The notes beneath the pieces were generated by a model. That model ran no database searches and was not told the origin of the DNA. It was given only the letters and a program-made list of their open reading frames with translations. The position numbers and the translations under genes are program-made. This document shows, piece by piece, positions 17,616 through 63,106 of a stretch of 64,000 nucleotides of DNA. The stretch lies in assembly GCA_963402885.1 (NCBI GenBank), contig OY727103.1:15402085-15466084 (forward strand), in the 5' to 3' direction. The stretch is from Antedon bifida (Eukaryota > Echinodermata > Crinoidea > Comatulida > Antedonidae). How positions within the stretch are numbered: the stretch's first letter is position 1; each line of letters starts with the position of its first letter.

Positions 17616-19196
17616 TTAGACACCTTCATATATGTTATTTTCAACCATTACATGGTCATCATCTGATGGACATTCAGACTCCTTATCTTGCTGCATATTG
17701 TTATTTCTCAAGTTTCCATTCTGTGATTCTGTAACTTCAAATCCACCTTCATATATGTTATCAACCATATTGCCATCTTCTGATGGACATTCAGACTGCT
17801 TATCTTGCCGCATATTAGCATTTCTCAAGCTTCCATTATGTGATTCAGTAATGTCAATCACACCTCCATAAATGTTGTTTTCAACCATTACATGGTCATC
17901 ATCTGATGGACATTCAGACTCCTTACCTTGCTGCATATTGGCATTTCTCAAACTTCCATTCTGTGATTCTGTAACTTCAAATCCACCTTCATATATGTTG
18001 TTATCAACCATACCATTGTCGTCTTCTGTAACTTGCTGTAATTTGGAATTTCTCATTGACTTTGGAACTACCTGAGCATATGTGTCACTTCTATTGCGTG
18101 TGTCAGATGATGTCTTTAGATCTTGCTGTATCATAAATTCTGGTTGATTCTTTGAAGCTGACAAATGATACATGGGGTTAGACTCTCTGTATAATCCCTT
18201 ACTTTTATTGGAATACTTCACATGCACTTCATCGCCATTTGTTGTAGACTTTCTTTTTCCAGCTTGTTTCTTCAAGACAACACAAATTAAAAACAATAGA
18301 AGACAAATACAAATAACAGCTGGAATAGCAAATAGATATATTATTATGCTGACTTCACTAGAAGATTCTTTAGTGCCATTGGTAGAGGTTGTGTTTCCAT
18401 CTGGTGTTGGTATTGTTGTCTGAAATGTTTCCTGTACTATACATGTCATAACATCCTCCATCCATGTGACCCTACATTGGTATGTTGCATTTAGATCTTC
18501 TTGTTGAAGATCAAAGGCATAGTCTAATTCGTATTCTGTAAATCTCAAGTTACTATAATATGTTACATTTCCATTCCAAACCATGACTTCATTTCTCCAC
18601 CATTCAATGCTTATGGTTGGATAACCTGGCTGTGTTGTACAGGTCAAGGTAACATTTTGTCCAATTAAATCACTCTGGTAACCAGTAGAATTACAAAGAG
18701 GGTATGGTGCTGGTGGTGGATATTCTACTGACAAAATGACAAAACCAATTGTATCTATTAATTCATTACCAGTACTAGTTACTTCACATCTATAAATATT
18801 TAAGTGTATAAAATGTTCAAGCCCTCGTGTAATGGTTAATGTAAATTCAATTTCATTGAAGTGGTTAAGTGAAAATGCCAATGCTTCTTCTCCAAGGTCA
18901 GAGGTCAGTAGTGTTCCATTTCTGTAAATCTCTGTTTCTGTTTCATCTTCAGCATATCCATCCATTTTTCTATACCAGATGATGTAATGTTCCTGCATAA
19001 AAGTTTGATCAGTACATTTGAAGTCAATTATATCACCTTCAGTGGCATCAATAATTTTGTTTAATTTTCCTGTCACAAGTCGTCTAGATTCCTCTTGATT
19101 TGTTTGCAATATATTTGTTATAAGTGAAATAATCCACAAAATATCAACAAGTCTATCTCCCACCATGATTGAAGTTTGTAATAATCTAATGCTCAT
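17616..19196 (-). CDS. R1: two-Ig membrane receptor, class B tail (526 aa)
   Basis: One uninterrupted frame. A signal peptide most likely begins at Met11 (MVGDRLVDILWIISLITNIL), the start shared by most paralogues. Ig1 has C61, W74 and C137; Ig2 has C186, W199 and C241, with an extra pair C168/C252 framing Ig2. A short Ser/Thr stalk precedes a membrane helix at about 283-308 and a basic stop-transfer KKQAGKRK. The 218-residue tail holds KYSNKS, NPMYHL and DTYAQV, then about three 40-residue repeats plus a partial, each starting IYEG or IYGG and containing SECPS followed by acidic residues. The long repeated tail is unique among the class B copies. A receptor with phosphotyrosine signalling is the likely role. 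The ectodomain is closest to R10, which carries a class A tail. Confidence 0.88.
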   Translation of the reverse strand: MSIRLLQTSIMVGDRLVDILWIISLITNILQTNQEESRRLVTGKLNKIIDATEGDIIDFKCTDQTFMQEHYIIWYRKMDGYAEDETETEIYRNGTLLTSDLGEEALAFSLNHFNEIEFTLTITRGLEHFIHLNIYRCEVTSTGNELIDTIGFVILSVEYPPPAPYPLCNSTGYQSDLIGQNVTLTCTTQPGYPTISIEWWRNEVMVWNGNVTYYSNLRFTEYELDYAFDLQQEDLNATYQCRVTWMEDVMTCIVQETFQTTIPTPDGNTTSTNGTKESSSEVSIIIYLFAIPAVICICLLLFLICVVLKKQAGKRKSTTNGDEVHVKYSNKSKGLYRESNPMYHLSASKNQPEFMIQQDLKTSSDTRNRSDTYAQVVPKSMRNSKLQQVTEDDNGMVDNNIYEGGFEVTESQNGSLRNANMQQGKESECPSDDDHVMVENNIYGGVIDITESHNGSLRNANMRQDKQSECPSEDGNMVDNIYEGGFEVTESQNGNLRNNNMQQDKESECPSDDDHVMVENNIYEGV

Positions 19197-19205
19197 ATTG
19201 TCAAA

Positions 19206-19488
19206 CTAAATATTAGAAATTAACTTCCTTAAATGGAATATTCCATTAATATAGAATTTTTTTATTTTGCTTTTAAAATAAATATTTCTGGCCAAAAATA
19301 TGTTGTAAATAATTATTTTTTGTAAACAATTTTTAAAAAAAATTCCTATGGGTATTAAATGTTATTGATTGGTTATTTATATTAAAGTACAGTATGAATC
19401 TTTTTACCTGCAAAGAACTGTTTATATTTTGTCTAGAAAAGAATATACATATCAAAAGTATCATATACTTTAGTGAGCCTTTTATATA
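19206..19488 (-). promoter_or_regulatory. R1 promoter and 5'UTR intron
   Basis: On the minus strand TATATAAAAGG (19478-19488) is a canonical TATA box. About 70 bp on, TTTGCAG is followed by GTAAAAA (donor at 19407), and TAATATTTAG at 19206-19215 is an acceptor 10 bases before the start codon, giving a 202-bp UTR intron. A conserved block at 19221-19250 contains the palindrome TGGAATATTCCA and the ETS-like AAGGAAGT. Confidence 0.6.
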
Positions 19489-20138: not shown

Positions 20139-20354
20139 TTAATCTTTTGATTTGGTAAACTGCATCTTCTGGCTCATTGTAACAAACATGTTCTTTTCTT
20201 CCTTAATATTATTATGTTCTTCAACTTTATTATAGACATGTTCTGTGTTCATTTCAATTGGTTTGTTGTAGATGTCTGTTACTTCAGTGGCACCTGCCAT
20301 TGTTTGATCACTATTGTTTGGCGTCTGATTTTCATGGTTTATCTTTTGAAACAC
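20139..20354 (-). pseudogene. Orphan class A tail fragment
   Basis: The frame encodes only the post-membrane part of a class A tail: NQTPNNSDQTMAG, TDIYNKPIEMNTEHVYN and a frameshifted end. No membrane segment or ectodomain lies directly upstream. The same relic occurs at 44155-44358, so it predates the block duplication. Confidence 0.75.
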
Positions 20355-20496
20355 TAGAGGCAGTATACCCAGATGTTAACAGGTAACTGTGTAAAATAAT
20401 ATTCCTGTGTTTACTATATTTAAGATTCGTTATTATCAGTTGTCATCATCTGTGAGGTGATTATGATGGCAATGTAATCTCATACTTTATAACTTA

Positions 20497-21642
20497 TCAT
20501 ACCTTGTTCATTTCTCTCTTGACATAATTTATATAGACATGCTCTTTTTCTTCAGCAACTTCATTATAGACATGTTCTTTGTTCATTTCTCTCTTGACAT
20601 CATTTATATAGACATGCTCTTTTTCTGCAGCAACTGCATGTTCTTTGATAATTTCAATTGGTTTGTTGTAGATGTCTGTTACTTCAGTGACATCTTCCGT
20701 CTTTTGAACAGCATTATTTGGCGTCTGATTTCTCTTGTACAGTAATAAGATTATTAGTAGTATTAGAAGAAGAACAATAACTGCACCAAGTGACAATCCA
20801 ATGGTTAAAGACGATGTTGATGCAATATTTGTCTGATTTATGGTTTTTGTTGCCAATTTCTCTGGTTCTGTTGTTGGTGTTGTTGTCTGAAATGTTTCCT
20901 GTACTGTACATGTTGTAACATCCTCCTTCCATGTGACCCTACATTGGTATGTTGCCTCTAAATCTTCTTGCTGAAGATTGAAGACATAGTCCGAAGAGTA
21001 TTCTATAAATAGCAAGTTACTATCATATGTTACATTTCCATTCCAAACCATGACTTCATTTCTCCACCATTGAATAGTTATTGTTGGATTACCTGGCTGT
21101 GTTGTACAGGTCAAGATAACATTTTGCCCAATTAAATCACTCTGGTAACCAGTAGAAGTACAAAGAGGGTATGGTGCTGGTGGTGGATATTCTACTAACA
21201 AAATGACAAAACCAGTTATATCTATTAATTCATTACCAGTCATACTTGCTATTACTTCACATCTATAAATATTTAAGTGTATAAAATGTTCAAGCCCTCG
21301 TGTAATCATTATTGTAAATTCAAATTCATTGACGTTGTTAGGTGAAAATGCCAATGCTGCTTCTCCAAGGTCAGAGGTCAGTAGTGTTCCATTTCTGTAA
21401 ATCTCTGTTTCATCTTCAGCATATACAATTTTTCTATACCAGATGATGTAATGTTCCTGCATAAAAGTTTGATCAGTACATTTGAAGTCAAATATATCAC
21501 CTTCAGTGGCATCAATAATTTTGTTTAATTCTCCTGTCACAAGTCGTCTAGATTCCTCTTGTGTTGTTTCACAATGTTTGTTATGAGTGAAATAATCCTT
21601 TTTTCCACATAAGAACTTGATATTTGATGTTTTACTATCCAA
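20497..21642 (-). CDS. R2: two-Ig receptor lacking the family signal peptide, class A tail (381 aa)
   Basis: Ig1 has C55, W68 and C128; Ig2 has C179, W192 and C234; the membrane helix is at about 279-302. The tail has DIYNKP, HVYIND, HVYNEV and HVYINYV, then stops early: the position equivalent to the C-terminal tail of R5 is interrupted by a stop after KREMNKV. The first ~25 residues are not a signal peptide. They read the family leader in a shifted frame and then foreign sequence, because the 5' end is joined to the remnant also seen at 46245-46308. R11 is its near-identical sister with an intact leader. As it stands this protein may not enter the secretory pathway, unless splicing supplies another leader, so it may be a recent pseudogene. 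Confidence 0.7.
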   Translation of the reverse strand: MDSKTSNIKFLCGKKDYFTHNKHCETTQEESRRLVTGELNKIIDATEGDIFDFKCTDQTFMQEHYIIWYRKIVYAEDETEIYRNGTLLTSDLGEAALAFSPNNVNEFEFTIMITRGLEHFIHLNIYRCEVIASMTGNELIDITGFVILLVEYPPPAPYPLCTSTGYQSDLIGQNVILTCTTQPGNPTITIQWWRNEVMVWNGNVTYDSNLLFIEYSSDYVFNLQQEDLEATYQCRVTWKEDVTTCTVQETFQTTTPTTEPEKLATKTINQTNIASTSSLTIGLSLGAVIVLLLILLIILLLYKRNQTPNNAVQKTEDVTEVTDIYNKPIEIIKEHAVAAEKEHVYINDVKREMNKEHVYNEVAEEKEHVYINYVKREMNKV

Positions 21643-22461
21643 GAATATACCAAATATTATATACTTCTCTTTTATGTGTGTTTATATAGCCAACAAAACT
21701 ATTCTTCTTTTATCTACCTTCATAGAATGAGCCTAAATAATAATAATAATATAGTGTGGCATTCATTTGAACAGAACAAGATTAATTTATCATTCCATTG
21801 AAATTATTGCTCATTTGGTAATGATCAAATACAAAGATGCTCTATGCAGTTGAATAATCAAATAAAATCTTTATTTGTTCCATAAAAAAGTGTACATGGA
21901 AAAATTGTTTTCCTAAACAGAAATATGAACGTCAAGGTTTAGACAAATGGAATTTAGATTTAATAGTTTAAACAAAAGGAACATGAAGGACTATGAATTG
22001 ACACTATATTAATATATTTTATTATACTTTTATACTTGTACAGTATTTTTATACATTTTCTTGTTATAGGTATTTTATAATTTGCTTGACTAGACTAGAT
22101 TCTTTTAGCAATTTCAAACCATGTATGAGTCAAATATGAACAAAGTTGAGTACAAAATATAGTAGGTTGGTTATATGAATCATCTTACAGGAATACTGTA
22201 GTACTACTCGGCTATTTTGGTGATAGGCTTGTACTTTGTAATATGCTTTATTTACATCAGTTAGATTGTTTGCCTTCAGTTCCATTGTATATTCAACTAT
22301 AACTATTGCACAGTTGTTCTAATAATATATGTAAATGGAAGAGTAAAGTAAAAGTTTCCCAACCAAAATTAAAACTTGATAATCATGATAATACATGTGC
22401 CTCTTTTTATCATGTGACCCACAATTGTCCAATCTTTTTAGGTTTTATATGCCTCTTTTTA
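21643..22461. other. Duplicated non-coding spacer
   Basis: Matches 46320-46770 and, in part, 27000-27960, 35640-36370 and 47810-48780. No gene is visible. Two copies of CCTCTTTTTATCATGTGACC lie near 22399 and 22451. Confidence 0.6.
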
Positions 22462-23841
22462 TCATGTGACCCACAATCGTCCTATCATATATGACAGAAA
22501 TCTATTTAGGTGTTTTTTTTCAGCAACATAATTATAGACATGTTCTTTTTCTTTTGCAACATCATTATAAGCATGTTCTTTTTCTTCAGCAACAGCATTA
22601 TAGACATGTTCTTTTTCTTCAGCAACATCATTATAGACATGTTCTTTTTCTTCAGCAACATCATTATAGACATGTTCAGTGTTCATTTCAATTGATTTGT
22701 TGTATATGTCAGTTACTTCAGTGACACCATTGTTTAGCATCTGATTTCTAGGATTTCTCTTGTACAGTAATGAGATTATTAGGAATATCAGTAGAAGAAC
22801 AATAACTGCACCAAGAGACAATCCAATGGTTAAAAACTGTGAAGTTAAAGTTGTAGTAGATGTTGTTTGATAGAATGTTGGTGTAGCCAATGTGTTTCTG
22901 CTAATTATTGACTTATCAGAAGTTGTAGTAACTTCCACTTTAGATGTTGTTTGATGGATTGTTGGTGGAGTCAATGTATTTCTGCTAATTGTTGAAACAA
23001 TCGATGTTAATGCAATATTTGTTTGATACCAAGTAGTTTTGCTGGCTTTTGTCGTCAATGTCTCTGGGTCTGTTATTGGTTCTGTTGTTGGTAATATTGT
23101 TGTCTGTGATGTTTCTTCTGCTGTACACGTTGTAATATCCCCCGGGCCCCACCATGTTACTCTGCATTGGTATGTTGCATCTAAATCTTCTTGTTGAAGA
23201 ATAAAGTTATAATCCAATGGATATTCTGTAAACCTCTCTCCACTCAAAAATGCAACATTTCTACTCGAAACCATGACTTCATTTCTCCACCATTGAATCC
23301 ATAGTAGTGGATTAGCTTGCTGTGTTTTACAGGTCAAGGTAGCAGTTTGGCCAACTAAATCTCTCTGATAACCAGTAGAAGTACAAAGGGGATAAGGCGC
23401 TGGCGGTGGAAAATATACATAAAAAACGACATAACCTGTTAATAATTCATTACCAGTACTAGTTGCTATTGCTACACATCTATAATTTTTGAAGTGAAGA
23501 ATATGTCCTTTTTCAATTGTTATTGTAAATTCAGCTTCGGTAGAGTTGTTAAGTGAGTAGGCCAGTGCTTCTTGTCCAATTTCAGAGGTCAGCAACATTC
23601 CATTTCTGTAAATCTCTGCATCATCTTCAGTATAGTAATCTTTTCTGATCCAGACAATGTAATGTTCCTCTGTCAAAGTTTGATCAGAACATTTAAAGTC
23701 AAATATATCACCTTCATTAGCATATACAGTTTCAGGTGATTCTGCTGTCACAAGTCCTCTATATTGCTCTTGTGTTGTTGGCACAATGTTTGTTATAAGT
23801 GAAATTATCCACAAAATATCAACAAGTTTATCTCCTCCCAT
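22462..23841 (-). CDS. R3: two-Ig receptor, class A tail with novel C-terminus (459 aa)
   Basis: Leader MGGDKLVDILWIISLITNIV; Ig1 C51, W64, C122; Ig2 C171, W184, C226. The stalk is long, with two related ~28-residue Thr/Ser units (ISRNTL...TTSDK). The membrane helix is at about 336-360, followed by YKRNPRNQ. The tail has DIYNKS and five 11-residue units of the EHVYNDVAEEK type, then ends abruptly in KKHLNRFLSYMIGRLWVT, which has no counterpart in R5 or R12. The DNA coding for that end matches non-coding flank found downstream of R5 (about 27900-27975), so a deletion has fused the tail repeats to flank and removed the usual VYINT end. Ectodomain nearly identical to R5 and R12. Confidence 0.87.
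   Translation of the reverse strand: MGGDKLVDILWIISLITNIVPTTQEQYRGLVTAESPETVYANEGDIFDFKCSDQTLTEEHYIVWIRKDYYTEDDAEIYRNGMLLTSEIGQEALAYSLNNSTEAEFTITIEKGHILHFKNYRCVAIATSTGNELLTGYVVFYVYFPPPAPYPLCTSTGYQRDLVGQTATLTCKTQQANPLLWIQWWRNEVMVSSRNVAFLSGERFTEYPLDYNFILQQEDLDATYQCRVTWWGPGDITTCTAEETSQTTILPTTEPITDPETLTTKASKTTWYQTNIALTSIVSTISRNTLTPPTIHQTTSKVEVTTTSDKSIISRNTLATPTFYQTTSTTTLTSQFLTIGLSLGAVIVLLLIFLIISLLYKRNPRNQMLNNGVTEVTDIYNKSIEMNTEHVYNDVAEEKEHVYNDVAEEKEHVYNAVAEEKEHAYNDVAKEKEHVYNYVAEKKHLNRFLSYMIGRLWVT
22510..22680 (-). repeat. 33-bp coding minisatellite in R3 tail
   Basis: Five tandem 33-bp units encode EHVYNDVAEEK variants (YNDV, YNDV, YNAV, YNDV, YNYV). Confidence 0.9.
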
Positions 23842-23894
23842 AGCTGCAATTTGTAATCATCTGATCAATTCTCAAACTTCTGAATTTTCAAAAT

Positions 23895-24257
23895 TAACTT
23901 CCTTAAGTGGAATATTCCATTAATGTAGAATAAATTAAAATTTATGAATATATTAATATATTAAGTTTCTTGAAGAATATTGGAAACAAATTCAATTAAT
24001 TTGTTTAGTATTTTGTATATTTTATTTTTTTCTATAATGGTTAATTTGATCATATTTTAAAATGATTTTTTTTTCTGCAGAAAATATTTTGTTTTACTAG
24101 CAAATAATACATCAAATATTGTATACTTCGCTAAGTATCTAACATGTTTATTTACTAAACAAAACTGTAGTTCTTCTTTTATGTGCGTTACTAATCACAC
24201 GGTGCTCTGCATTTAAACAGTGGATAGAATTTATATTCCATACACTGTTTAAATGCA
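23895..24257 (-). promoter_or_regulatory. R3 upstream region: conserved block and inverted repeat
   Basis: The TGGAATATTCCA/AAGGAAGT-type block is at 23895-23924 (here with CCACTTAAGG between). A perfect 15-bp inverted repeat, TGCATTTAAACAGTG at 24208-24222 and its complement at 24243-24257, lies about 370-415 bp before the start codon. Confidence 0.5.
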
Positions 24258-24558: not shown

Positions 24559-25761
24559 TCAGATATTATCTTCATATATGTTGTTATCAACCATACCATT
24601 GTCATCTTCTATAGGATATTCAGACTCATTATCTTGCTGTAATTTGGAATTTCTTATTGACTTCGGAACTACCTGGGAATAGGTGTCACTTCTACTTTGT
24701 TTGTCAGATGATATCTTCAGTTCTGGCTGTATCATAAATTCTGGTTGATTCTTTGTAGCTAATCCATCATACATGGGATTAGACTCTCTGTATAATCCCT
24801 GACTTTTATTGGAATACTTCACCTGTACTTTATCACCATCTGTTTTAGACTTTCCTTTCCCAGCTTGTTTCTTCAAGACAACACAAATTAGAAACAATAG
24901 AAGACAAATACAAATAACAGCTGGAATAGCAAATAGATATGTTATTATGCTGACTTCATTAGAAGATTCTTTAGTGCCATTGGTAGAGGTTGTGTTTCCA
25001 TCTGGTGTTGGTATTGTTGTCAGAGATGTTTCCTGTACTGTGCATGTTGTAACATCCTCCATCCATGTGACCCTACATTGGTATGTTGCCTCTAAATCTT
25101 CTTGTTGAAGATTGAAGGCATAGTCCAATGAGTACTCTTTAAATCTCAAGTTACTATTACTATCATATGTTACATTTCCATTCCAAACCATGACTTCATT
25201 TCTCCACCATTGAATGCTTATGGTTGGATTACCTGGCTGTGTTGTACAGGTCAAGGTAGCAATTTGCCCAATTAAATCACTCTGGTAACCAGTAGAAGTA
25301 CAAAGAGGATATGGTGCTGGTGGTGGATATTCTACTAACAAAATGACAAAACCAGTTTTATTTATTAATTCATTACCAGTACTAGTGGCTATTACTTTAC
25401 ATCTATAAATATTTAAATGTATAAAATTTCCAATTCCTCGTACAATGGTTATTGTAAATTCAATTTCATTGACATTGTTAAGTGAATATGCCAATGCTTC
25501 TTCTCCAAGGTCAAAGGTCAGTAGTGTTCCATTTCTGTAAATCTCTTTTTCATCTTCAGTATATCCACTTGTTCTATACCAGATGATGTAATGTTCCTCT
25601 GTCAAAGTTTCATCAGTACATTTGAAGTCAAATATATCACCTTCAGTAGCATCAATACGTGTATGTATCACATGTTGTCCAGATTCCTCTTGATTTGTTG
25701 GCACAATGTTCGTTATGAGTGAAGTAATCCACAAAATATCAACAAGTTTATCTCCCACCAT
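24559..25761 (-). CDS. R4: two-Ig receptor, class B tail (400 aa)
   Basis: Leader MVGDKLVDILWITSLITNIV; Ig1 C48, W61, C121; Ig2 C172, W185, C229; a short stalk (PTPDGNTTSTNGTKESS) with N-glycosylation sites; membrane helix about 271-296; basic KKQAGKGKSK. The tail has KYSNKS, GLYRESNPMYDGL, DTYSQVVPK and NNIYED as tyrosine motifs, without the 40-residue repeats of R1. From the start of Ig2 to the stop the protein matches R6 almost residue for residue, while Ig1 differs clearly, so R4 and R6 are patchworks. A minus-strand AATAAA at 24519-24524 is 35 bp past the stop. Confidence 0.9.
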   Translation of the reverse strand: MVGDKLVDILWITSLITNIVPTNQEESGQHVIHTRIDATEGDIFDFKCTDETLTEEHYIIWYRTSGYTEDEKEIYRNGTLLTFDLGEEALAYSLNNVNEIEFTITIVRGIGNFIHLNIYRCKVIATSTGNELINKTGFVILLVEYPPPAPYPLCTSTGYQSDLIGQIATLTCTTQPGNPTISIQWWRNEVMVWNGNVTYDSNSNLRFKEYSLDYAFNLQQEDLEATYQCRVTWMEDVTTCTVQETSLTTIPTPDGNTTSTNGTKESSNEVSIITYLFAIPAVICICLLLFLICVVLKKQAGKGKSKTDGDKVQVKYSNKSQGLYRESNPMYDGLATKNQPEFMIQPELKISSDKQSRSDTYSQVVPKSIRNSKLQQDNESEYPIEDDNGMVDNNIYEDNI

Positions 25762-25795
25762 GGCTGCAATTTTTGATAATCTAATACTGAATTGT

Positions 25796-26083
25796 CTAAA
25801 TATTAGAAATTAACTTCCTTAAATGGAATATTCCATTAATATAAAATGTTAATATTGCTTTTATTTTAAAAGTTTTAAAATGCTGGCCAAGAATATTTTT
25901 TAAATAAATTGAACAATTTTTTTTTTATTCCTATGGGTAATTAGATCCTATTGATTGGTTATTTATGATTTATATTAAAGTACAGTATGAATCCTTTTAT
26001 CTCTGCAAAGAACTTTTTATATTGTGTCTAGAAAAGGATATACATATCAAAAGTATCATATACTTTAGTGAGCCTTTTATATA
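25796..26083 (-). promoter_or_regulatory. R4 promoter with altered 5'UTR donor
   Basis: TATA box TATATAAAAGG at 26073-26083, conserved block at 25811-25840 and acceptor AATATTTAG ending at 25796. The donor site that reads CAGGTAAAAAG in R1 and R6 reads CAGAGATAAAAG here, so the usual GT is missing. Confidence 0.55.
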
Positions 26084-26297: not shown

Positions 26298-26556
26298 TAA
26301 CTTCCTTAAATGGAATATTCCATTAATATAGAATAAAAATAAACTTTTAAATATTAATCAATATTTCTGTCAAGAATATTTTTAAAGTAAATCCTGCAAT
26401 AGTTCCTATGTTGTTTAGTTATTAATTAAATGCTATTAATTGGTTATTTATATGTATGTATGAATCTATTTTACCTGCAGATAACTTATTATTTTGTACA
26501 TTAGAAATGAGTAAACACACCAAAAGTATTGTATACTTCGCTGTGCCTTTTATATA
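26298..26556 (-). promoter_or_regulatory. Orphan receptor promoter without a gene
   Basis: A complete family block (26298-26327) and TATA box TATATAAAAGG (26546-26556) are present, but retroposon sequence and flank follow instead of a start codon and leader. The matching copy at 47120-47372 still has a 5' gene fragment. Confidence 0.55.
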
Positions 26557-28209: not shown

Positions 28210-29865
28210 TTATGATGGCAATGTAATCTCATACTGTATGTCTTCTACCTGTTTCTTATTAGCCTTATGTCCAGATGTGGTAGTGTTAATGTAGACCTTA
28301 TCTCCTGCATCATTGTAATATACATGTTCCTTGTTATTTTCTTCCTTAACATCATTATAGACATGTTCTTTTTCTTTTGCAACATCATTATAGACATGTT
28401 CTTTTTCTTCAGCAACATAATTATAGACATGTTCTTTTTCTTCAGCAACATCATTATAGACATGTTCTTTTTCTTCAGCAACATCATTATAGACATGTTC
28501 TTTTTCTTCAGCAACATCATTATAGACATGTTCAGCGTTCATTTCAATTGATTTGTTGTATATGTCAGTTACTTCTTTTTCTTTTGCAACACCATTATAA
28601 ACATGTTCTTTTCCTTCAGCAACATCATTATAGACATATTCTTTTTCTTCAGCAACAGCATTATAGACATGTTCTTTTTCTTCAGCAACATCATTATAGA
28701 CATGTTCAGTGTTCATTTCAATTGATTTGTTGTATATGTCAGTTACTTCAGTGACACCATTGTTTAGCATCTGATTTCTAGAATTTCTCTTGTACAGTAA
28801 TGAGATTATTAGGAATATCAGTAGAAGAACAATAACTGCACCAATGGTTAAAAACTGTGAAGTTAAAGTTGTAGTAGATGTTGTTTGATAGAATGTTGGT
28901 GTAGCCAATGTGTTTCTGCTAATTATTGACTTATCAGAAGTTGTAGTAACTTCCACTTTAGATGTTGTCTGATGGATTGTTGGTGGAGTCAATGTATTTC
29001 TGCTAATTGTTGAAACAATCGATGTTGATGCAATATTTGTTTTATACCAAATAGTTTTGCTGGCTTTTGTCGTCAATGTCTCTGGGTCTGTTATTGGTTC
29101 TATTGTTGGTAATATTGTTGTCTGTGATGTTTCTTCTGCTGTACACGTTGTAATATCCCCCGGGCCCCACCATGTTACTCTGCATTGGTATGTTGCATCT
29201 AAATCTTCTTGTTGAAGAATAAAGTTATAATCCAATGGATATTCTGTAAACCTCTCTCCACCCAAAAATGCAACATTTCTACTCGAAACCATGACTTCAT
29301 TTCTCCACCATTGAATCCATAGTAGTGGATTAGCTTGCTGTGTTTTACAGGTCAAGGTAGCAGTTTGGCCAACTAAATCTCTCTGATAACCAGTAGAAGT
29401 ACAAAGGGGATAAGGCGCTGGCGGTGGAAAATATACATAAAAAACGACATAACCTGTTAATAATTCATTACCAGTACTAGTTGCTATTGCTACACATCTA
29501 TAATTTTTGAAGCGAAGAATATGCCTAAGTCCTTTTTCAATTGTTATTGTAAATTCAGCTTCGGTAGAGTTGTTAAGTGAGTAGGCCAGTGCTTCTTGAC
29601 CAAGGTCAGAGGTCAGCAACATTCCATTTCTGTAAATCTCTGCATCATCTTCAGTATAGTAATCTTTTCTGATCCAGACAATGTAATGTTCCTCTGTCAA
29701 AGTTTGATCAGAACATTTAAAGTCAAATATATCACCTTCATTAGCATATACAGTTTCAGGTGCTTCTGCTGTCACAAGTCCTCTATATTGCTCTTGTGTT
29801 GTTGGCACAATGTTTGTTATAAGTGAAATTATCCACAAAATATCAACAAGTTTATCTCCTACCAT
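28210..29865 (-). CDS. R5: two-Ig receptor with longest interrupted tyrosine array, class A (551 aa)
   Basis: Ectodomain as in R3 (Ig1 C51, W64, C124; Ig2 WIQWWRNEV and YQCRVTW). The Thr-rich stalk has two ISRNTL units. The membrane segment is four residues shorter than in R3 (LTIGAVIV instead of LTIGLSLGAVIV) but still about 20 residues. The tail holds ten units of the HVYNxV type in two arrays of four and six, separated by a second copy of the header TDIYNKSIEMN; it then ends HVYYND, VYINTTTS and IQYEITLPS. With about 15 tyrosines, many at fixed 11-residue spacing, it could recruit several SH2 proteins at once. Near-identical to R12 outside the array, where unit number differs. Confidence 0.9.
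   Translation of the reverse strand: MVGDKLVDILWIISLITNIVPTTQEQYRGLVTAEAPETVYANEGDIFDFKCSDQTLTEEHYIVWIRKDYYTEDDAEIYRNGMLLTSDLGQEALAYSLNNSTEAEFTITIEKGLRHILRFKNYRCVAIATSTGNELLTGYVVFYVYFPPPAPYPLCTSTGYQRDLVGQTATLTCKTQQANPLLWIQWWRNEVMVSSRNVAFLGGERFTEYPLDYNFILQQEDLDATYQCRVTWWGPGDITTCTAEETSQTTILPTIEPITDPETLTTKASKTIWYKTNIASTSIVSTISRNTLTPPTIHQTTSKVEVTTTSDKSIISRNTLATPTFYQTTSTTTLTSQFLTIGAVIVLLLIFLIISLLYKRNSRNQMLNNGVTEVTDIYNKSIEMNTEHVYNDVAEEKEHVYNAVAEEKEYVYNDVAEGKEHVYNGVAKEKEVTDIYNKSIEMNAEHVYNDVAEEKEHVYNDVAEEKEHVYNDVAEEKEHVYNYVAEEKEHVYNDVAKEKEHVYNDVKEENNKEHVYYNDAGDKVYINTTTSGHKANKKQVEDIQYEITLPS
28345..28740 (-). repeat. 33-bp coding minisatellite in R5 tail (two arrays)
   Basis: Six units, a repeated header coding DIYNKSIEMN, then four more units. 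The header duplication shows that array growth copied a larger segment, not only single 33-bp units. Confidence 0.9.
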
Positions 29866-29919
29866 AGCTGCAATTTGTAATCATCTGATGGTCAATTCTC
29901 AAACTTCTGAATTTTAAGT

Positions 29920-30295
29920 TAACTTCCTTAAGTGGAATATTCCATTAATGTAGAATAAATTAAAATTTGTGAATATATTAATATATTAAGTTTCTTGAAG
30001 AATATTGGAAACAAATTCAATTAATTTGTTTAGTATTTTGTATATTTTATTTTTTTCTATAATGGTTAATTTAATCATATTTTAAAATGATTTTTTTTTC
30101 TGCAGAAGATATTTTGTTTTACTAGCAAATAATACATCAAATATTGTATACTTCGCTGAGTATCTAACATGTTTATTTACTAAACAAAACTGTAGTTCTT
30201 CTTTTATGTGGGTTAGTATGGGGCTTTACTAATCACACGGTGCTCTGCATTTAAACAGTGGATAGAATTTATATTCCATACACTGTTTAAATGCA
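29920..30295 (-). promoter_or_regulatory. R5 upstream region: conserved block and inverted repeat
   Basis: Block at 29920-29949; perfect inverted repeat TGCATTTAAACAGTG at 30246-30260 with its complement at 30281-30295. Confidence 0.5.
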
Positions 30296-31811: not shown

Positions 31812-31848
31812 GGCTGCAATTTTTGATAATCTAATACTAAATTGTCAA

Positions 31849-35456: not shown

Positions 35457-35482
35457 AACTGCAATTCTAATAATCTATAAAT

Positions 35483-45671: not shown

Positions 45672-45679
45672 TTGTCAAA

Positions 45680-46974: not shown

Positions 46975-47002
46975 GACTGCAATTTTTGATTATCAAATGC
47001 TC

Positions 47003-47104: not shown

Positions 47105-47119
47105 ACTAAAATTAGAAAT

Positions 47120-50697: not shown

Positions 50698-50751
50698 AGC
50701 TGCAATTTGTAATCATCTGATGGTCAATTCTCAAACTTCTGAATTTTAAGT

Positions 50752-51120
50752 TAACTTCCTTAAGTGGAATATTCCATTAATGTAGAATAAATTAAAATTT
50801 GTGAATATATTAATATATTAAGTTTCTTGAAGAATATTTTGGAAACAAATTCAATTAATTTGTTTAATATTTTTTATATTTTATTTTTTCTATAATGGGT
50901 AATTCAATCGTATTTTAAAATGATTCAGAAGATATTTTGTTTTACCAGCAAAGAATACATCAAATATTGTATACTTCGCTAAGTATCTAACATGTTTATT
51001 TACTAAACAAAACTGTAGTTCTTCTTTTATGTGCGTTAGTATAGGGCTGTACTAATCACACGGTGCTCTGCATTTAAACAGTGTATAGAATTTATATTCC
51101 ATACTGATGTTTAAATGCAC
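50752..51120 (-). promoter_or_regulatory. R12 upstream region: conserved block and partly decayed inverted repeat
   Basis: Block at 50752-50781; acceptor TTAAAATTCAG just before it in the reading direction to the gene; donor TTTGCTG/GTAAAAC near 50946. The left arm TGCATTTAAACAGTG (51069-51083) is intact, the right arm has lost symmetry (ACTGATGTTTAAATGCA). Confidence 0.5.
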
Positions 51121-51828: not shown

Positions 51829-53484
51829 CTACCTGTTCTGATTATGATTTGGTAGTATTGACGTACAGTAAACTGTATCTTCTGGATCTTTTTTCCTTTC
51901 CTCCTTGACATTATTATATACATGATTCTTCTTTTCTTCCTTGATGGTATTATAGATGTGTTCTTTTTCTTCAGCAACTTCAAGATAGACATGTTCAGTG
52001 TTCATTTCAATTGGTTTGATGTATACTGGTGTGCTGTATGTTTCCATTACTTCTGCCATCTTTTGATCATTATTTGGCATCTGATTTGTCTGATTTCTCT
52101 TGTACATTAAAGCGATTATTAGAAGTATTATCAGAAGAAAAATAACTGCACCAAGAGACAATCCCATGGTAAAAGACTTATCAGAAGTTGTAGTGTCGTC
52201 CAGTGTAGATGTTGTCTGAAGGATTGTTGGTGTAGTCAATGCGCTTCTGCTAATTGTTGACTTATCAGAAGCTGTAGTGTCTTCCATTGTAGATGTTGTC
52301 TGAAGGATTGTTGGTGTAGTCAATGCACTTCTGCTAATTGTTGACTTATCAGAAGTTGTAGTGTCTTCCATTGTAGATGTTGTCTGAAGGATTGTTGATA
52401 TAGTCAATGTGTTTCTGCTAATTGTTGACTTATCAGAAGTTGTAGTGTCTTCCAGCTGAGATGTCTGAAAAATATTTGGTGTAGTCAATGTGTTTCTGCT
52501 AATTGTTGACTTAGAAGTTGTAGTCTTATCAGAACTTGTAGTGTCTTCCATTATAGATGTCTGATGGATGGTTGGTGTAGTCACTGCATTTGTTGACCTA
52601 TCAGAAATTGTAGTGTGTTCCATTATAGATGTTGTCTGATAAATTGTTGTCATATTCCCATTATATTCAGAAACTGTTGATTCAATATTTGTTTGATGTC
52701 TAAAAGTTCCACTGGTTGGTTCTGTTTTTGGTAATATTGTTGTCTGAGATGTTTCTTGTACTGTACATGTTGTAACGTCCTCCTTCCATGTGACCCTACA
52801 TTGGTATGTTGCCTCTAAATCTTCTTGCTGAAGATTGAAGACATAGTCCAATGAGTATTCTGTAAATCTCGCTCTATTATTATATACTATATCTTTATTT
52901 AAAACCATTACATCATTTCTCCACCATTGAATGCTTATGATTGGATTACCTGGCTGTGTTGTACAGGTCAAGATAACATTTTGTCCAATTAAATTACTCT
53001 GGTAACCAGTAGAAGTACAAAGAGGATATGGTGCTGGTGGTGGATATTCTACTAACAAAACGACATAACCAGTTATTAATGCATTACCAGTACTAGTTGC
53101 TATTACTGCACATCTATAATTGTTGAAGTTAAGAATAATCCCAAGTCCTCTTGGGATTGTTATTGTAAATTCAGCTTCAGTGGAGTTGTTAAGTGAGTAT
53201 GCCAGTGCTTCTTGACCAAGGTCAGAGGACAGCAGTGTTCCATTTCTGTAAATCTCTGTTTCATCTAAAGTATAAGATTTTGTTCTGATCCAGATGATGT
53301 AATGTTCCTCTGTGAAAGTTTGATCAGAACATTTGAAGTCAATTATGTCACCTATATTAGCATATACAGTTTGAGGGAATTCTCCTCCTATCACAAGTTG
53401 TCTAGATTCCTCTTGGTTTGTTGGCAACACATTTGTTATCAGTGAAAGTATCCACAAAATATCAACAATTTTCTCCCCTACCAT
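51829..53484 (-). CDS. R13: two-Ig receptor with long Thr-rich stalk, class A-like tail (551 aa)
   Basis: Leader MVGEKIVDILWILSLITNVL; Ig1 C52, W65, C125; Ig2 C174, W187, C229. The stalk (about 245-437) contains several 28-residue units (STISRSALTTPTILQTTSTM followed by EDTTxSDK), likely O-glycosylated and rod-like. Membrane helix about 438-461. The tail differs from other class A members: ETYSTPVYIKP replaces DIYNKP, followed by HVYLEV, HIYNTI, HVYNNV and TVYCTSI. HIYNTI and HVYNNV are one more YxxI/V pair. The C-terminus runs on into NHNQNR. The most diverged of the R1-R13 group, with full leader, Ig cysteines and promoter block. Confidence 0.9.
   Translation of the reverse strand: MVGEKIVDILWILSLITNVLPTNQEESRQLVIGGEFPQTVYANIGDIIDFKCSDQTFTEEHYIIWIRTKSYTLDETEIYRNGTLLSSDLGQEALAYSLNNSTEAEFTITIPRGLGIILNFNNYRCAVIATSTGNALITGYVVLLVEYPPPAPYPLCTSTGYQSNLIGQNVILTCTTQPGNPIISIQWWRNDVMVLNKDIVYNNRARFTEYSLDYVFNLQQEDLEATYQCRVTWKEDVTTCTVQETSQTTILPKTEPTSGTFRHQTNIESTVSEYNGNMTTIYQTTSIMEHTTISDRSTNAVTTPTIHQTSIMEDTTSSDKTTTSKSTISRNTLTTPNIFQTSQLEDTTTSDKSTISRNTLTISTILQTTSTMEDTTTSDKSTISRSALTTPTILQTTSTMEDTTASDKSTISRSALTTPTILQTTSTLDDTTTSDKSFTMGLSLGAVIFLLIILLIIALMYKRNQTNQMPNNDQKMAEVMETYSTPVYIKPIEMNTEHVYLEVAEEKEHIYNTIKEEKKNHVYNNVKEERKKDPEDTVYCTSILPNHNQNR
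52155..52510 (-). repeat. 84-bp coding minisatellite in R13 stalk
   Basis: About four tandem units of 84 bp (28 codons), the last two nearly identical, with older diverged units beyond. The same unit type occurs two or three times in R3, R5 and R12. Confidence 0.85.
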
Positions 53485-53539
53485 GACGGCAATTTATAAT
53501 CATCAAATGCATAATTGCAAAACTTTTAATATTACAAAT

Positions 53540-53950
53540 GAACTTCCTTGAATGGAATACTCCATTAATATAGAATACATAAAATGTTATATAGAATACA
53601 TTAACATTTGTAAATACTAATTAACTTTCTTAGAAACAAATTCAATAAATTTGTTTAATTATTTTATTATATATTTTATTTTATCTATAATGGTTAATTC
53701 AATCCTATTAATTATTTTTAAAATGAATTTATTTTTCTATATAAGATGATATTTTGTTTCACTAGCAAAGAATACATCAAATATTGCATACTTCGCTGAG
53801 TATCCAACATGTTTATTTACTAATTAAACAAAACTGTAATTGTTCTTTTATGTGCCTTTGTATGGGAGCCTTAGTAATCACACGAAGCTCTGAATTTAAA
53901 CAGTGGATAGAATTTATATTCCATACACTGTTTAAATGCAGACCAATAAG
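53540..53950 (-). promoter_or_regulatory. R13 upstream region: conserved block and inverted repeat
   Basis: Block at 53540-53569 reads TGGAGTATTCCA with CAAGGAAGT. The inverted repeat has arms at 53891-53905 and 53936-53950, one mismatch. Donor TTTGCTA/GTGAAAC near 53764. Confidence 0.5.
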
Positions 53951-54449: not shown

Positions 54450-56342
54450 CTAATCTTCTGTTAGACATTCAGTCTCCTTATCTTGCTGTAATTTGCTCTG
54501 TGATTTTGATACGTCAACCACACCTTCATAAATGTTGTTGTCAACCATTACAAGGTCATCTTCTGATGGACATTCAGACTCTTTATCTTGCTGTAATTTG
54601 ATCTGTGATTTTGTAACATCAATAGCACCTTCATAAATGCTGTTATCAACCATTTCATTGTCATCTTCTGTCTGATATTCAGACTCTTTATCTTGCTGTA
54701 ATTTGGCACCCTCTGTTGGACAGTCGGTCTCCTTATCTTGCTGATTCACATTTCTCATTGATTTTGGAACTACCTGAGTGTCATTTCTACTGTGTGTGTC
54801 AGATGGTTTCTTTAGTTCTGGTTGTAGCGTTAATTCTGGTTGATCCTTTGAAGTTGATCCATTACACACTGGATTATCCTCTGTGGATAATCCCTGACTT
54901 TCATTGGAATCCTGATCTTTCTTTTGTTTCCAATACTTCATCTGCACTTTATCGCCATCTGTTTTAGACTTTCTTTTTTCAGCTCGTTTCTTCAAGACAA
55001 CAAAAATTACAAGAACTACAAGGCAAGCACAAATAACAGCTGGGATTGCTAATAGATATATTAGTATACTCTCACTTTTTTGAGAAGTTTGTTTAGTGCG
55101 TTTGGTAGTCATGAGTTGTGTTGATGTATGTTGACGGATTTCATCTGTTGCAAAGGATTTGGATAGACTTGCAGCAGTCTCTTCTAGTTTTTTTGTTGTC
55201 AATATCTTTGGTGTTAGTGTGGTCAATATCTCTGGTGTTGAAGTGGTCAGTGTATCTGTCCTTAATGTTGTTAACTTTTTTAGTGTTGATGAGGTCAGTT
55301 TTTCTGGTGTTGGTGTAGTCGATGTCTCTGGTGTTAGTGTGGTCAATATCTCTGGTGTTGGTGTGGTCGATGTCTCTGGTGTTAGTGTGGTCAATATCTC
55401 TGGTGTTGGTGTGGTAAATATCTCTGGTGTTGGTGTGGTCGATGTCTCTGGTGTTGGTGTGGTCGATGTCTCTGGTGTTAGTGTGGTCAATATCTCTGGT
55501 GTTGGTGTGGTTGATGTCTCTAGTGTTATTGTAGTCAATGTCTCTGTTGTTAGTGTGATTGATTTTTCCAATGTTGTTGGTGTGAGAAGTGTCTCTTGTG
55601 TTGCTGTCTCTGGTTCTGTTGTTGCTTCTGCTGTTGTCGAGTGAAGTGTTTCTTGCACTGTACATGTTTTAACATCCTCCATCCATGTGACCCTACATTG
55701 GTATGTTGTCTCTAAATCTTCTTGTTGAAGAGTAAATGTATAGTTCAATGAGAAATCTCTAAGTTTGTTTTCACCATTGTACACTATTAAGCGTTTACTT
55801 GTAACATTTACATTACCTTGCCACCATTGAATGCTTATTCTTGGATTACCTGGCTGTGTTACACACAACAGTGTAACATTTTGTCCAAAAGAATCGCTCT
55901 GATAACTGGTAGCAGAACAAAGAGGATATGGTGCTGGAGGTGGATAGTCTACAAGCAGATAGCCGTAATTATTTGAAAATAATATATTACCAGTACTGGC
56001 TTCTATTACTGCACATTCATAGTTATTTCCATGAAGATATTGTCCAAGTCCTTTTTTTATTGTTATTATAAATTCAGCTTCAATGGAGTTGTTGAGTGAG
56101 TATGCCAGTGCTTCTTGTCCAAGGTCAGAGGTCAGTAGTGCCCCATTCCTGTAAATCTCTGTTTCCTTTCTGTACCAGATTGTGTATTGTCCCTCTATCA
56201 AAGGTTGATCATTACACTTTAAGTTAATAATATCGCCTTCTTTGGCATGTACAATTTTAGGTTGTTCCTCTTGAGTTGCCTGAAGTACGTTTATTATGAG
56301 TGAAACAATCCACAAAATCTCAACAAATTTACCTCCCACCAT
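54450..56342 (-). CDS. R14: two-Ig receptor with mucin-like stalk, class B tail (630 aa)
   Basis: Leader MVGGKFVEILWIVSLIINVL; Ig1 C43, W56, C110; Ig2 C160, W173, C216. The stalk (about 235-420) has many 8-residue units such as TTPTPEIL and TTLTPETS, a dense O-glycosylation pattern. Membrane helix about 425-450, then KKRAEKRKSK. The class B tail has MKYWKQKK in place of KYSNKS, then SIYEGAIDV and NNIYEGVVDV, each followed by KLQQDKESECPSEDD-like acidic stretches, and ends in LTED. The DTYSQV site of other class B copies reads NDTQVVPK, so that tyrosine is absent. Its ectodomain is closest to R15, which has a class A tail. Confidence 0.9.
   Translation of the reverse strand: MVGGKFVEILWIVSLIINVLQATQEEQPKIVHAKEGDIINLKCNDQPLIEGQYTIWYRKETEIYRNGALLTSDLGQEALAYSLNNSIEAEFIITIKKGLGQYLHGNNYECAVIEASTGNILFSNNYGYLLVDYPPPAPYPLCSATSYQSDSFGQNVTLLCVTQPGNPRISIQWWQGNVNVTSKRLIVYNGENKLRDFSLNYTFTLQQEDLETTYQCRVTWMEDVKTCTVQETLHSTTAEATTEPETATQETLLTPTTLEKSITLTTETLTTITLETSTTPTPEILTTLTPETSTTPTPETSTTPTPEIFTTPTPEILTTLTPETSTTPTPEILTTLTPETSTTPTPEKLTSSTLKKLTTLRTDTLTTSTPEILTTLTPKILTTKKLEETAASLSKSFATDEIRQHTSTQLMTTKRTKQTSQKSESILIYLLAIPAVICACLVVLVIFVVLKKRAEKRKSKTDGDKVQMKYWKQKKDQDSNESQGLSTEDNPVCNGSTSKDQPELTLQPELKKPSDTHSRNDTQVVPKSMRNVNQQDKETDCPTEGAKLQQDKESEYQTEDDNEMVDNSIYEGAIDVTKSQIKLQQDKESECPSEDDLVMVDNNIYEGVVDVSKSQSKLQQDKETECLTED
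55200..55560 (-). repeat. 24-bp coding minisatellite in R14 stalk
   Basis: About 14 units of 24 bp, coding TTxTPExx. The antisense strand also stays open (SGVGVVD-type repeats), which is a by-product of the unit length. Confidence 0.9.
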
Positions 56343-56390
56343 GACTGCAGTTTAATCTGATGTTCTATTGTTATATGTTTAATTATTATA

Positions 56391-56413
56391 AACTTCCTTA
56401 TAAGGAATATACC
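56391..56413 (-). promoter_or_regulatory. Diverged block upstream of R14
   Basis: Reads TGGTATATTCCTTATAAGGAAG; the ETS-like part is kept and the palindrome is changed. The same variant precedes R15. Confidence 0.45.
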
Positions 56414-60730: not shown

Positions 60731-61678
60731 GTCTGCCATACCTCAGAAATGCCTTTTTTTAAATAAAACAAATTGTAATTGTAGTCAAAAATTAAATTTG
60801 CATTCAACTCATTTGCTAATAATAAACTTTATTCTTGGCAGAAATATAATATAATAGTCACAAATTGTGATACAAGTATAACTAACTTCAATTCAACAAA
60901 TTTAAAAGTACATGTGAATGTAATTTTAATTATATAAGCATTCATTTAACAAAATAGTATTTCAATTTATGGATTAAATAGAAGTAATATTGATTAAGAT
61001 AATAATGTTATATACTTATGAGACCCATGGCCATGTATTTTTTTTATCATATAGTATTTTCAGAGATGTGGATACATAATAGACAGGAGGACATTTTAGT
61101 GTTTTTTTTTATAACAAATCTGCGTTATTCAATTTATTTTACAATTGTGGTTCTACAAATGGAAATTTCAGCATCAATTTACAAAGCAGAAACTCTATAA
61201 TAATGATAATAATATATATAAAAATGTAGTTGTTGAAGTAAATACATTTGTAAAGGTAAAAAATCTAAAAAAAGCTTTCATACAGAAATATTGTGCTTTT
61301 AAAAGTGAACACAAGCTAATATTGGTATTATAATTATATAATAAATTTACGACTTAAATACTGAAAACATCAGCAGACGGTGATTCACATTGACTGTGAA
61401 TACATAACATTGATGGAATTTATCTTTGTTGATCACACAAACATTATTGACAGAAACAGTTTTATACTTAGATAAATGTCATATTACACCTAGCAGCAGA
61501 TATAAGAAGCAATCAATAGTAGTAATAATTACTGTACAATTTAGGTGTGTTTGATTTTGGCAGATTCCCCTGGATAGGGGTGTATTTTAACAAAAGTAAG
61601 AACATTATTTAGTAAATTAGGGATGGTTGTGTTTTGTAGAAAGGTTCATCAGGAGAGGTTTTTGACATTATCTGGTGA
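60731..61678. other. AT-rich spacer between transposon and R15
   Basis: No gene or repeat recognised. Confidence 0.5.
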
Positions 61679-63106
61679 TTAAGATGGCAGCACACTCTCA
61701 TACTTCTCATCTTCTTCTACCCGTTTCTTGTTAGCCTTGACATTATTATAGACATGTTCTTTTTCTTCAGCAACATCATCGTAGACATGGTTTGTGTTAA
61801 TTTCTCTCTTGACATTTTTATAGACATGTTCTTTTTCTTCAGCAACATCATCATAGACATGTTTTGTGTTAATTTCTTCTTGTTCTTTAACATCATCATA
61901 TATGTATTCTGTTTTCATTTCAATTGGTTTGTTGTATATGTCTGTTACTTCAGTAACACCTACCATATTTTGAACACCAGTGTTTGGTGTCTGATTTGAA
62001 CGATTTCTCTTGTGCAGTAATTGTAAAGAAATAATTAACAGTATCAGTAGAAGAATAATAACTGCACCAAGAGACAATCCAATGGTTAAAGACTTATCAG
62101 CAGTTGTAGTGTCTTCCATAAGTGTCTCTTGTGTAGGTGTGGTCAATATCTCTGGTGTTGGTGTGGTCAATATCTCTGGTGTTGGTGTGGTCAATATCTC
62201 TGGTGTTGGTGTGGTCAATGTGACTGGTGTTGGTTTGGTCAATTTTTCTGTTGTTGGTTTGGTCAATTTCTCTGGTGTTGGTGTGGTCAATATCTCTGGT
62301 GTAGGTGTGGTCAATGTGACTGGTGTTGGTTTGATTGATGTCTCTTGCATTGATTTGGTCAATGTTTCTGTTGTTGGTTTGGTCAATTTCTCTGGTTCTG
62401 TTACTCTTGTTTGTTTCTCTACTGTACATGTTTTAGCATCTTTCTTCCATGTGACCCTGCATTGGTATGTTGTCTCTAAATCTTCTTGTTGAATATTGAA
62501 GGTATAGTTCAATGAATAATCTTTAAATTTGTTTAGACCATTGTACACTATTAAGTGTTTTCTTGTAACACTTACATTACCTTGCCACCATTGAATGCTT
62601 ATTCTTGGATTACCTGGCTGTGTTACACACGACAGTGTAACATTTTGTCCAATAGAATTTCTCTGATAACTGGTAGCATAACAAAGAGGATATGGTGCTG
62701 GAGTTGGATATTCTACAACCAGATAGCCATAGTTATAGGAAAATAGGGTATCACCAGTACTGGTTTCTATAACTGCACATTCATAGTTATTTCCATTAAG
62801 ATATTGTCCAAGTCCTTTTTTTATTGATAGTTTCAGGTCAGCTTCAGTTGAGTTGTTAAGTGAGTATGCCAATGCTTCTTTGCCTAATTTAGAAGTCAGT
62901 AGTGTTCCATTTCTGTAAATTGATATTCCCTTTCTGTACCAGATGATGTAATGTTCTTCTATAAATGTTTGATTAGTACATTTCAGGTCAAATATATCAC
63001 CTTCAGTGGCATATACAATTTTAGGTTGTTCCTCTTGAGTTGTCTGATGTACATTTATTATAAGTAAAATAATCCACAAAATATCAACACATTTACCTCC
63101 CACCAT
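61679..63106 (-). CDS. R15: two-Ig receptor with mucin-like stalk, class A tail (475 aa)
   Basis: Leader MVGGKCVDILWIILLIINVH; Ig1 C43, W56, C110; Ig2 C160, W173, C216, with YPTPAPYPLC between. The stalk (about 233-335) has 8-residue Thr/Pro units (TTPTPEIL, TKPTTEKL). Membrane helix about 339-363. The tail has DIYNKP, YIYDDV, HVYDDV, HVYKNV, HVYDDV, HVYNNV and the C-terminal KYESVLPS; two blocks of EINTKHVYDDVAEEK / EINTNHVYDDVAEEK show a longer duplication unit than the 11-residue one. Ectodomain sister of R14; membrane and tail are of the other class. Acidic residues before and after the tyrosines favour phosphorylation by Src/Syk-like kinases, by analogy. Confidence 0.9.
   Translation of the reverse strand: MVGGKCVDILWIILLIINVHQTTQEEQPKIVYATEGDIFDLKCTNQTFIEEHYIIWYRKGISIYRNGTLLTSKLGKEALAYSLNNSTEADLKLSIKKGLGQYLNGNNYECAVIETSTGDTLFSYNYGYLVVEYPTPAPYPLCYATSYQRNSIGQNVTLSCVTQPGNPRISIQWWQGNVSVTRKHLIVYNGLNKFKDYSLNYTFNIQQEDLETTYQCRVTWKKDAKTCTVEKQTRVTEPEKLTKPTTETLTKSMQETSIKPTPVTLTTPTPEILTTPTPEKLTKPTTEKLTKPTPVTLTTPTPEILTTPTPEILTTPTPEILTTPTQETLMEDTTTADKSLTIGLSLGAVIILLLILLIISLQLLHKRNRSNQTPNTGVQNMVGVTEVTDIYNKPIEMKTEYIYDDVKEQEEINTKHVYDDVAEEKEHVYKNVKREINTNHVYDDVAEEKEHVYNNVKANKKRVEEDEKYESVLPS
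62115..62400 (-). repeat. 24-bp coding minisatellite in R15 stalk
   Basis: About twelve units of 24 bp coding TTPTPEIL or TKPTTEKL variants; the same unit family as in R14 but with a different order and number. Confidence 0.9.

Follow-up and report, generated by a model that had tools for sequence, protein, structure and literature searches.

The window analysed here is a 64,000-nucleotide stretch of Antedon bifida contig OY727103.1, and its minus strand holds, between positions 17616 and 63178, a tandem array of genes predicted to encode receptors with two immunoglobulin (Ig) domains. Copies are named by the lower coordinate of their reading frame (Table 1). Stop-to-stop frames of 120 amino acids (aa) or more number 23 in the window. 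The 15 array frames are all on this strand; of the others, five are antisense or other-frame readings of coding repeats in the array and three fall in a putative plus-strand neighbour gene. A tblastn search of the window with the 15 array proteins gave 25 islands, every one of them on the minus strand, which bears out the fifteen one-strand frames with common parts that an initial annotation of this DNA had described. These parts are, in order, a leader, a V-like first Ig domain (Ig1), a YPPPAPYPLC linker, a second Ig domain (Ig2), a Ser/Thr-rich stalk, a membrane helix and a tyrosine-rich tail. Every part is present in 13 of the frames, called complete below; 34692 is truncated, and in 20497 the leader and 5′ end have been replaced. 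The array of two-Ig receptors is real, but the "about 14 intact" members of the annotation become 13. In each complete copy a single open frame, with no intron, extends from the leader as far as the stop codon. An intron in the 5′ untranslated region was considered and dropped, as the CAG|GT donor varies among copies in our reading. Judging from its genes, we take the window (G+C content 29–35% in 4-kb steps) to be animal DNA. This G+C content agrees with that of bivalves (32% in Mytilus; PMC7653742), as it does with that of many other animals.

A conserved 23-bp element, GGAATATTCCATTTAAGGAAGTT, was found upstream of the array genes. It has 17 matches in the window at up to three mismatches, all on the minus strand, where 0.00 would be expected. 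Fourteen of these lie 28–57 bases upstream of a start codon (12 of the 14 at 49–57 bases) and the other three (26299, 36497 and 47121) mark orphan relic 5′ ends; 20497 has no element. The core TATTCCNNNNAAGGAAGTT is free of mismatches in all 13 complete copies and in 16 of the 17 elements, the exception belonging to the truncated 34692 (0.20 expected with two mismatches allowed). When 428 upstream windows of 23 bases were ranked by conservation among five divergent copies, the element came first (90% vs a median of 43%). Read by its letters, it would hold candidate sites for SRF (CArG-like) and ETS factors and, in most copies, one resembling the Rel-like consensus GGRRNNYYCC, unless the letters form a TATA-like core instead. 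Because the element is matched 17 times and the ectodomains of 13 copies are 57–93% identical to that of one reference copy, the array family is not due to chance.

The complete proteins start with a leader of the MVGDKLVDILWIISLITN type. Ig1 has two cysteines 67–76 residues apart, and Ig2 has a canonical Cys pair together with two outer cysteines, one in the linker and one in a TTC motif; 41756 is without the first cysteine of the Ig2 pair. The Cys and Trp columns are invariant in the ectodomain alignment. The stalk varies from about 34 to 200 residues and the tail from 77 to 218, and coding repeats with periods of 24, 33, 84, 105 and 123 bases underlie this variation. A Pfam search of the ectodomains at E 0.01 matched Ig_3 and I-set in 14 of 14 copies and V-set in nine, and Ig1 alone at E 0.1 matched V-set in six of 14, plus a few stray families. 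By these matches and by the invariant columns, which supply the Cys–Cys pair and core Trp of an Ig fold, the proteins can be placed in the immunoglobulin superfamily (IgSF). When four array proteins were scanned at full length with the Pfam cut-offs, only generic Ig models passed, and none did for 49033; three proteins compared with the NCBIfam models had no match. In a profile search of the PDB the best match was FCRL5 (E 3.3e−6 for the whole chain, with no single stretch passing), and SYG-2 was also matched (8.5e−6); these matches suggest IgSF and nothing finer. An AlphaFold model built from a 14-sequence alignment gave blocks of per-residue confidence (pLDDT) of 63–93 for Ig2 and below 50 for Ig1, with an overall predicted TM-score (pTM) of 0.46. 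Ig1 modelled alone gave no usable model either, which counts against the receptor explanation proposed below. A structure search with the first model returned antibody and other Ig chains at a TM-score to the query of about 0.3, a low value because the Ig1 half of the model is unreliable.

The annotation had recognised no described family with this combination of parts. Nothing found here contradicts that view, given the generic Ig models and generic IgSF chains, though this lends it little weight, as no animal proteome was among the sequences searched. In the open-licence literature, of which coverage was partial, no description of the family was recognised and four family peptides searched as text were unmatched. 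No relatives were found by tblastn among 36 pattern matches in bacterial and archaeal genomes or among six in viral contigs, and one array protein had no relative in phages, as expected for an animal family; these searches covered no animal genome.

The tails fall into two classes, A in ten copies and B in four. Class A is marked by a helix with GAVI and by motifs such as EHVYNDVAEEK, and class B by AIPAVIC and NNIYE-type sites, with NPMY in three of the four. In BLASTP comparisons between tails, one class B pair matched at E 1e−50 and one class A pair at 3e−27, and the cross pair 54450/61679 gave no match. Tyrosine-based signalling motifs of Ig receptors are commonly defined as Yxx[LI] x6-12 Yxx[LI] for the activation motif (ITAM), [SILV]xYxx[LIV] for the inhibition motif (ITIM) and TxYxx[VI] for the switch motif (ITSM). 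In their strict form these have counts of 0, 0 and 0 in the 14 tails, which weighs against the immune reading proposed below, since such motifs would link the array to known immune receptors, and rules out filing the tails under any of the three types. If valine is allowed, Yxx[LIV] x6-12 Yxx[LIV] occurs 27 times in seven tails (shuffle mean 1.4), [DE]xxYxx[LIV] occurs 36 times (shuffle mean 4.0), in all ten class A tails and in no class B tail, and NPxY occurs three times (0.3 in shuffles); these counts are inflated by repeat copies, since tandem duplication is not modelled in the shuffles. The (D/E)xxYxx(V/I) motifs recur 11 residues apart in seven of the ten class A tails. The tails resemble ITAM-type tails, as defined above, in an acidic residue at −3 and in Yxx(aliphatic) repeats at ITAM-like spacing. 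They differ in that 44 of the 47 Yxx[LIV] sites have valine at +3 and that a tail may carry as many as ten motifs. One motif of the 32794 tail reads EHVCNDV, with cysteine in place of tyrosine. Activating receptors that pair with adaptors carry a charged residue within the membrane helix; here the 21-residue hydrophobic peak is uncharged in all 14 tailed copies.

Ectodomains and tails have been exchanged between copies at least once. At least two changes of tail class are forced on the ectodomain tree, on its starred branches, and 41756 provides a case that can be followed along the gene. Compared bin by bin with the class B copy 17616, it is 82–99% identical over a stretch that begins some 350 bases before the start and closes with Ig2, and 36–51% identical beyond that; from stalk to stop it is 90–97% identical to 37386 and 32794. 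Approximately unbiased (AU) tests on seven of the ten class A copies, with groups named after the identity profiles had been seen, rejected the grouping of 41756 with 32794 and 37386 in the ectodomain (p-AU 1.3e−4) and with 44505 and 20497 in the 3′ half (p-AU 1.5e−5). An earlier AU test limited to 147 columns of the tail gave no rejection (p = 0.088), unlike the test on the longer 3′ half. By these comparisons 41756 is a chimera, with the ectodomain of one lineage and the stalk and tail of another.

There is also evidence for duplication and decay. Ten of the 25 tblastn islands lie outside the 15 frames. Two of them (27930-27977 and 48741-48788) are merely 3′-flank matches to the odd C-terminus of 22462 (22462-22520, minus strand), where the tail end has been lost and the last residues correspond to 3′ flank sequence of 28210 and 49033. 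The eight remaining islands, together with the orphan element at 26299, make up about seven remnant places in our grouping, consistent with the at least six relics of the initial annotation. The 5′ end of 20497 is similar to the promoter-side sequence of 34692 and has a relic twin at 46244-46390. An intron in the tails of 20497 and 44505 was set aside, since the piece of tail found downstream is broken and looks like a relic. Roughly 600 bases within the relic at 39.5–41.0 kb (39992-40624) match none of the array proteins and separate its two parts; they may be a mobile insert.

Long similar blocks are present within the array: 22543-26220 vs 28573-32268 (3.7 kb, 95.2%), 26266-29013 vs 47088-49764 (2.8 kb, 92.2%) and 19567-21598 vs 43565-45610 (2.05 kb, 96.3%). 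The last two keep the same order, and copies 24559 and 30597 share 99–100% identity between roughly the linker and the 3′ flank (79–95% before that stretch). Such blocks would also arise if allelic haplotypes had been placed end to end in the assembly, inflating part of the copy number. We consider this very unlikely, since the copies differ at many levels of divergence, with identities down to 64% among the 60 longest of 236 pairs of similar stretches of at least 250 bases, and since merging {22462, 28210, 49033}, {32794, 37386} and {24559, 30597} would still leave nine of the 13 complete copies.

The coding sequences show signs of constraint. Pairwise alignments of the 13 complete copies over their first 735 coding bases hold 318 internal gaps, each with a length divisible by three (all 78 pairs, at 70% identity or more). 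For the 450 bases upstream, where 24 of the 78 pairs align this well, the figure is 36 of 191 gaps; for downstream sequence, with 6 of the 78 pairs, it is 6 of 20. It should be noted that the pairs are not independent and that, the copies having been chosen for open frames, in-frame gaps are partly expected. The ratio of nonsynonymous (dN) to synonymous (dS) change, omega, is less tied to this choice of frames, and it also indicates that the ectodomains are under constraint: it was 0.645 for Ig1 over all 14 copies (p = 0.0019 vs 1), 0.586 for Ig2 over all 14 (IQ-TREE) and 0.46 for Ig2 in a clade of six copies with similar ectodomains (p = 0.009 vs 1). These values and the intact element core of every complete copy argue against a mostly dead array, in which few copies would be expressed and the rest would be drifting pseudogenes. 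That reading draws on the remnant places, the truncated 34692, the loss of leader and 5′ element in 20497, the missing Ig2 cysteine of 41756, the Tyr-to-Cys change in one tail motif and the fact that open frames prove little in copies selected for them, and we regard it as highly improbable.

The evolution of Ig1 hints at diversifying selection. Within the six-copy clade dN exceeded dS in 15 of 15 pairs for Ig1 and in 1 of 15 for Ig2, that one pair being without synonymous change, and a class of selected sites was favoured for Ig1 with all columns included (p = 1.5e−4). Over all 14 copies such a class was favoured for both domains (Ig1, with scaled branch lengths, p = 0.0019; Ig2 p = 0.0083), and dN exceeded dS in 17 of 91 pairs for Ig1 and in five for Ig2. 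Several results weigh against this interpretation. In the six copies the omega of Ig1, 1.76, did not depart significantly from 1 (p = 0.09). The signal of selected sites was lost (p = 0.12) once columns 8–15, eight columns beside a gap, had been dropped. The contrast between the domains owes much to a low dS in Ig1 (0.007–0.109, vs 0.118–0.283 in Ig2 apart from the pair without synonymous change), with dN of 0.035–0.136 in Ig1 and 0.005–0.114 in Ig2, and recent exchange within Ig1 could be the source of this pattern. Pooled over the 91 pairs, pN/pS was 0.72 for Ig1 and 0.66 for Ig2.

We give about even chances to the explanation that these genes, each a single exon in the germline, form an array encoding type I transmembrane recognition receptors, most likely serving invertebrate innate immune or self/non-self recognition. 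On the basis of analogy with other receptor clusters an immune-type use is likely. The annotation had drawn the same analogy; the receptor array with signalling-type tails and its turnover have held up, and the immune or allorecognition part stays an analogy. In the mechanism that we propose, Ig1 would be the membrane-distal recognition domain, presented at the cell surface by Ig2 as its base, which in turn would stand on a mucin-like stalk of variable length. Binding of a ligand, or clustering, would lead Src-family-like kinases to phosphorylate the tail tyrosines, on which SH2 proteins would dock as signalling partners. Docking on class A tails would use the (D/E)xxYxx(V/I) motifs, with their 11-residue spacing in seven of ten tails, and YxN sites; on class B tails it would use NNIYEGV-type sites and, in three of the four, NPxY. 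The family changes by segmental duplication, decay, in-frame change of repeat length and exchange between copies near the boundary of ectodomain and stalk, the last of which lets the putative recognition and signalling halves recombine.

A more specific version of this proposal, which we hold as possible but doubtful, is that of a modular system: single-exon genes would let recombination close to the junction of ectodomain and stalk pair recognition halves anew with either of two unrelated tails, the main tail would be a multivalent ITAM-like array of the valine type with an 11-residue repeat and a new SH2 docking motif, and the complete copies would share one promoter element.

Tandemly expanded adhesion or recognition receptors outside immunity, such as those for neural wiring, gamete recognition or epithelial adhesion, are an unlikely alternative in our view, since the numerous relics, the exchange of the two tail classes and tails with as many as ten tyrosine motifs point to a fast turnover, which to our knowledge is less usual among wiring or adhesion families. 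The weak PDB matches do include SYG-2, Dscam and CD276, and Ig recognition families outside immunity can be large, with 21 Dpr and 11 DIP members in Drosophila (PMC11999971).

The innate immune or self/non-self reading can be set beside several known systems. The vertebrate NITR, LILR/KIR and FCRL clusters are likewise arrays of Ig receptors with tyrosine tails, and FCRL5 was the top PDB profile match; their inhibitory members carry ITIMs, vs no ITIM or ITSM in the 14 tails here. Clustered, fast-turnover Ig receptors with signalling tails occur in fish and mammals and are already known from hydroids. The Alr family of the Hydractinia allorecognition complex consists of single-pass IgSF proteins of the cell surface, encoded in a cluster that also holds many pseudogenes, and has V-set and I-set domains (PMC11067881, PMC11999971). 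The predicted proteins and relics of the array are similar in these points; the difference is that the array frames are single-exon. Membership of the Alr family would be defined by sequence homology and a place in that complex, and allorecognition genes in general are marked by an extreme polymorphism between individuals that governs the response; the present analysis covers one sequence. PMC11999971 also describes oyster CgIgIT2, an invertebrate IgSF receptor whose tyrosine-based tail has a classic ITAM and which has five Ig domains, vs two Ig domains and no strict ITAM here, and snail FREPs with two tandem Ig domains and variability by point mutation and recombination. FREPs carry a fibrinogen domain, whereas the array proteins have a membrane helix and tail after the Ig domains, and no fibrinogen model was matched in the four of 15 proteins scanned at full length with Pfam. 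If the proposed explanation holds, this small array of intron-free genes, with its swapped signalling modules and non-canonical tyrosine repeat, would test independently what such systems need. Whether YxxV repeats can signal as ITAMs do could then be tested directly.

Table 1 Receptor copies, 23-bp upstream elements and relics of the array, in window coordinates
Feature	Positions	ATG	Strand	Description
Receptor gene 17616	17616..19205	19166	-	complete, tail class B, 516 aa
Element of 17616	19222..19244		-	GGAATATTCCATTTAAGGAAGTT
Relic tail	20155..20372		-	class A, downstream of 20497
Receptor frame 20497	20497..21681		-	leader and 5′ element lost, otherwise Ig1-Ig2-helix-tail, class A
Receptor gene 22462	22462..23856	23841	-	complete, class A, tail end replaced by 3′-flank-derived residues
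Element of 22462	23896..23918		-	
Receptor gene 24559	24559..25809	25761	-	complete, class B
Element of 24559	25812..25834		-	
Orphan element	26299..26321		-	relic 5′ end
Receptor gene 28210	28210..29880	29865	-	complete, class A, 10 Yxx[LIV] tail motifs
Element of 28210	29921..29943		-	
Receptor gene 30597	30597..31844	31811	-	complete, class B
Element of 30597	31865..31887		-	
Receptor gene 32794	32794..34077	34047	-	complete, class A
Element of 32794	34103..34125		-	
Truncated member 34692	34692..35474		-	without Ig1 second-Cys stretch, stalk, helix and tail
Element of 34692	35484..35506		-	changed; only one of 17 failing the core pattern
Relic	35641..36519		-	leader 36397-36471, element 36497-36519, 20497-type 5′ piece 35641-35736
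Receptor gene 37386	37386..38657	38627	-	complete, class A
Element of 37386	38683..38705		-	
Relic gene	39501..41001		-	frameshifted; Ig fragment and class A tail, unlike sequence between
Receptor gene 41756	41756..43030	42991	-	complete, class A, chimera, first Ig2 Cys missing
Element of 41756	43046..43068		-	
Relic tail	44166..44380		-	class A, downstream of 44505; copy of 20155..20372 by segmental duplication
Receptor gene 44505	44505..45674	45641	-	complete, class A
Element of 44505	45696..45718		-	
Relic	46244..46390		-	20497-type N-terminus
Relic	46768..47143		-	leader and Ig1 start, frame broken, element 47121-47143
Receptor gene 49033	49033..50712	50697	-	complete, class A, 8 Yxx[LIV] tail motifs
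Element of 49033	50753..50775		-	
Receptor gene 51829	51829..53493	53484	-	complete, class A, long stalk of 84-nt repeats
Element of 51829	53541..53563		-	2 mismatches
Receptor gene 54450	54450..56351	56342	-	complete, class B, ectodomain sister to 61679
Element of 54450	56391..56413		-	3 mismatches
Receptor gene 61679	61679..63178	63106	-	complete, class A
Element of 61679	63138..63160		-	3 mismatches

On the strand opposite to the array, 393-5906 (+) holds what appear to be the last exons of an LRIG-like gene, with two I-set domains, a helix and cytoplasmic exons. Its Ig pair matched LRIG1 (4u7m) in the PDB at E 7e−61, second to titin among the best 60 of 137 matches at ≤ 1e−10, and from this match and the layout we infer that the neighbour is an LRIG gene. 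In our reading it is split into exons, unlike the array genes. Exon-like frames at 15052-15339 and 16249-16515 (+) may belong to a further plus-strand gene, with no Pfam match for the first and only sub-threshold matches for the second. Nine frames outside the array and the neighbour gave nothing above the Pfam cut-offs, and Rfam and tRNA scans of the window gave no match. Several repeats were also observed: long arrays of a CAT-type trinucleotide at 15789-16219, CGTATACG-rich repeats with 25-base inverted arms near 57.1–57.3 and 60.1–60.3 kb, and, between 54450 and 61679, a 133-base direct repeat (58868-59000 and 59656-59788) whose two copies are 97% identical.

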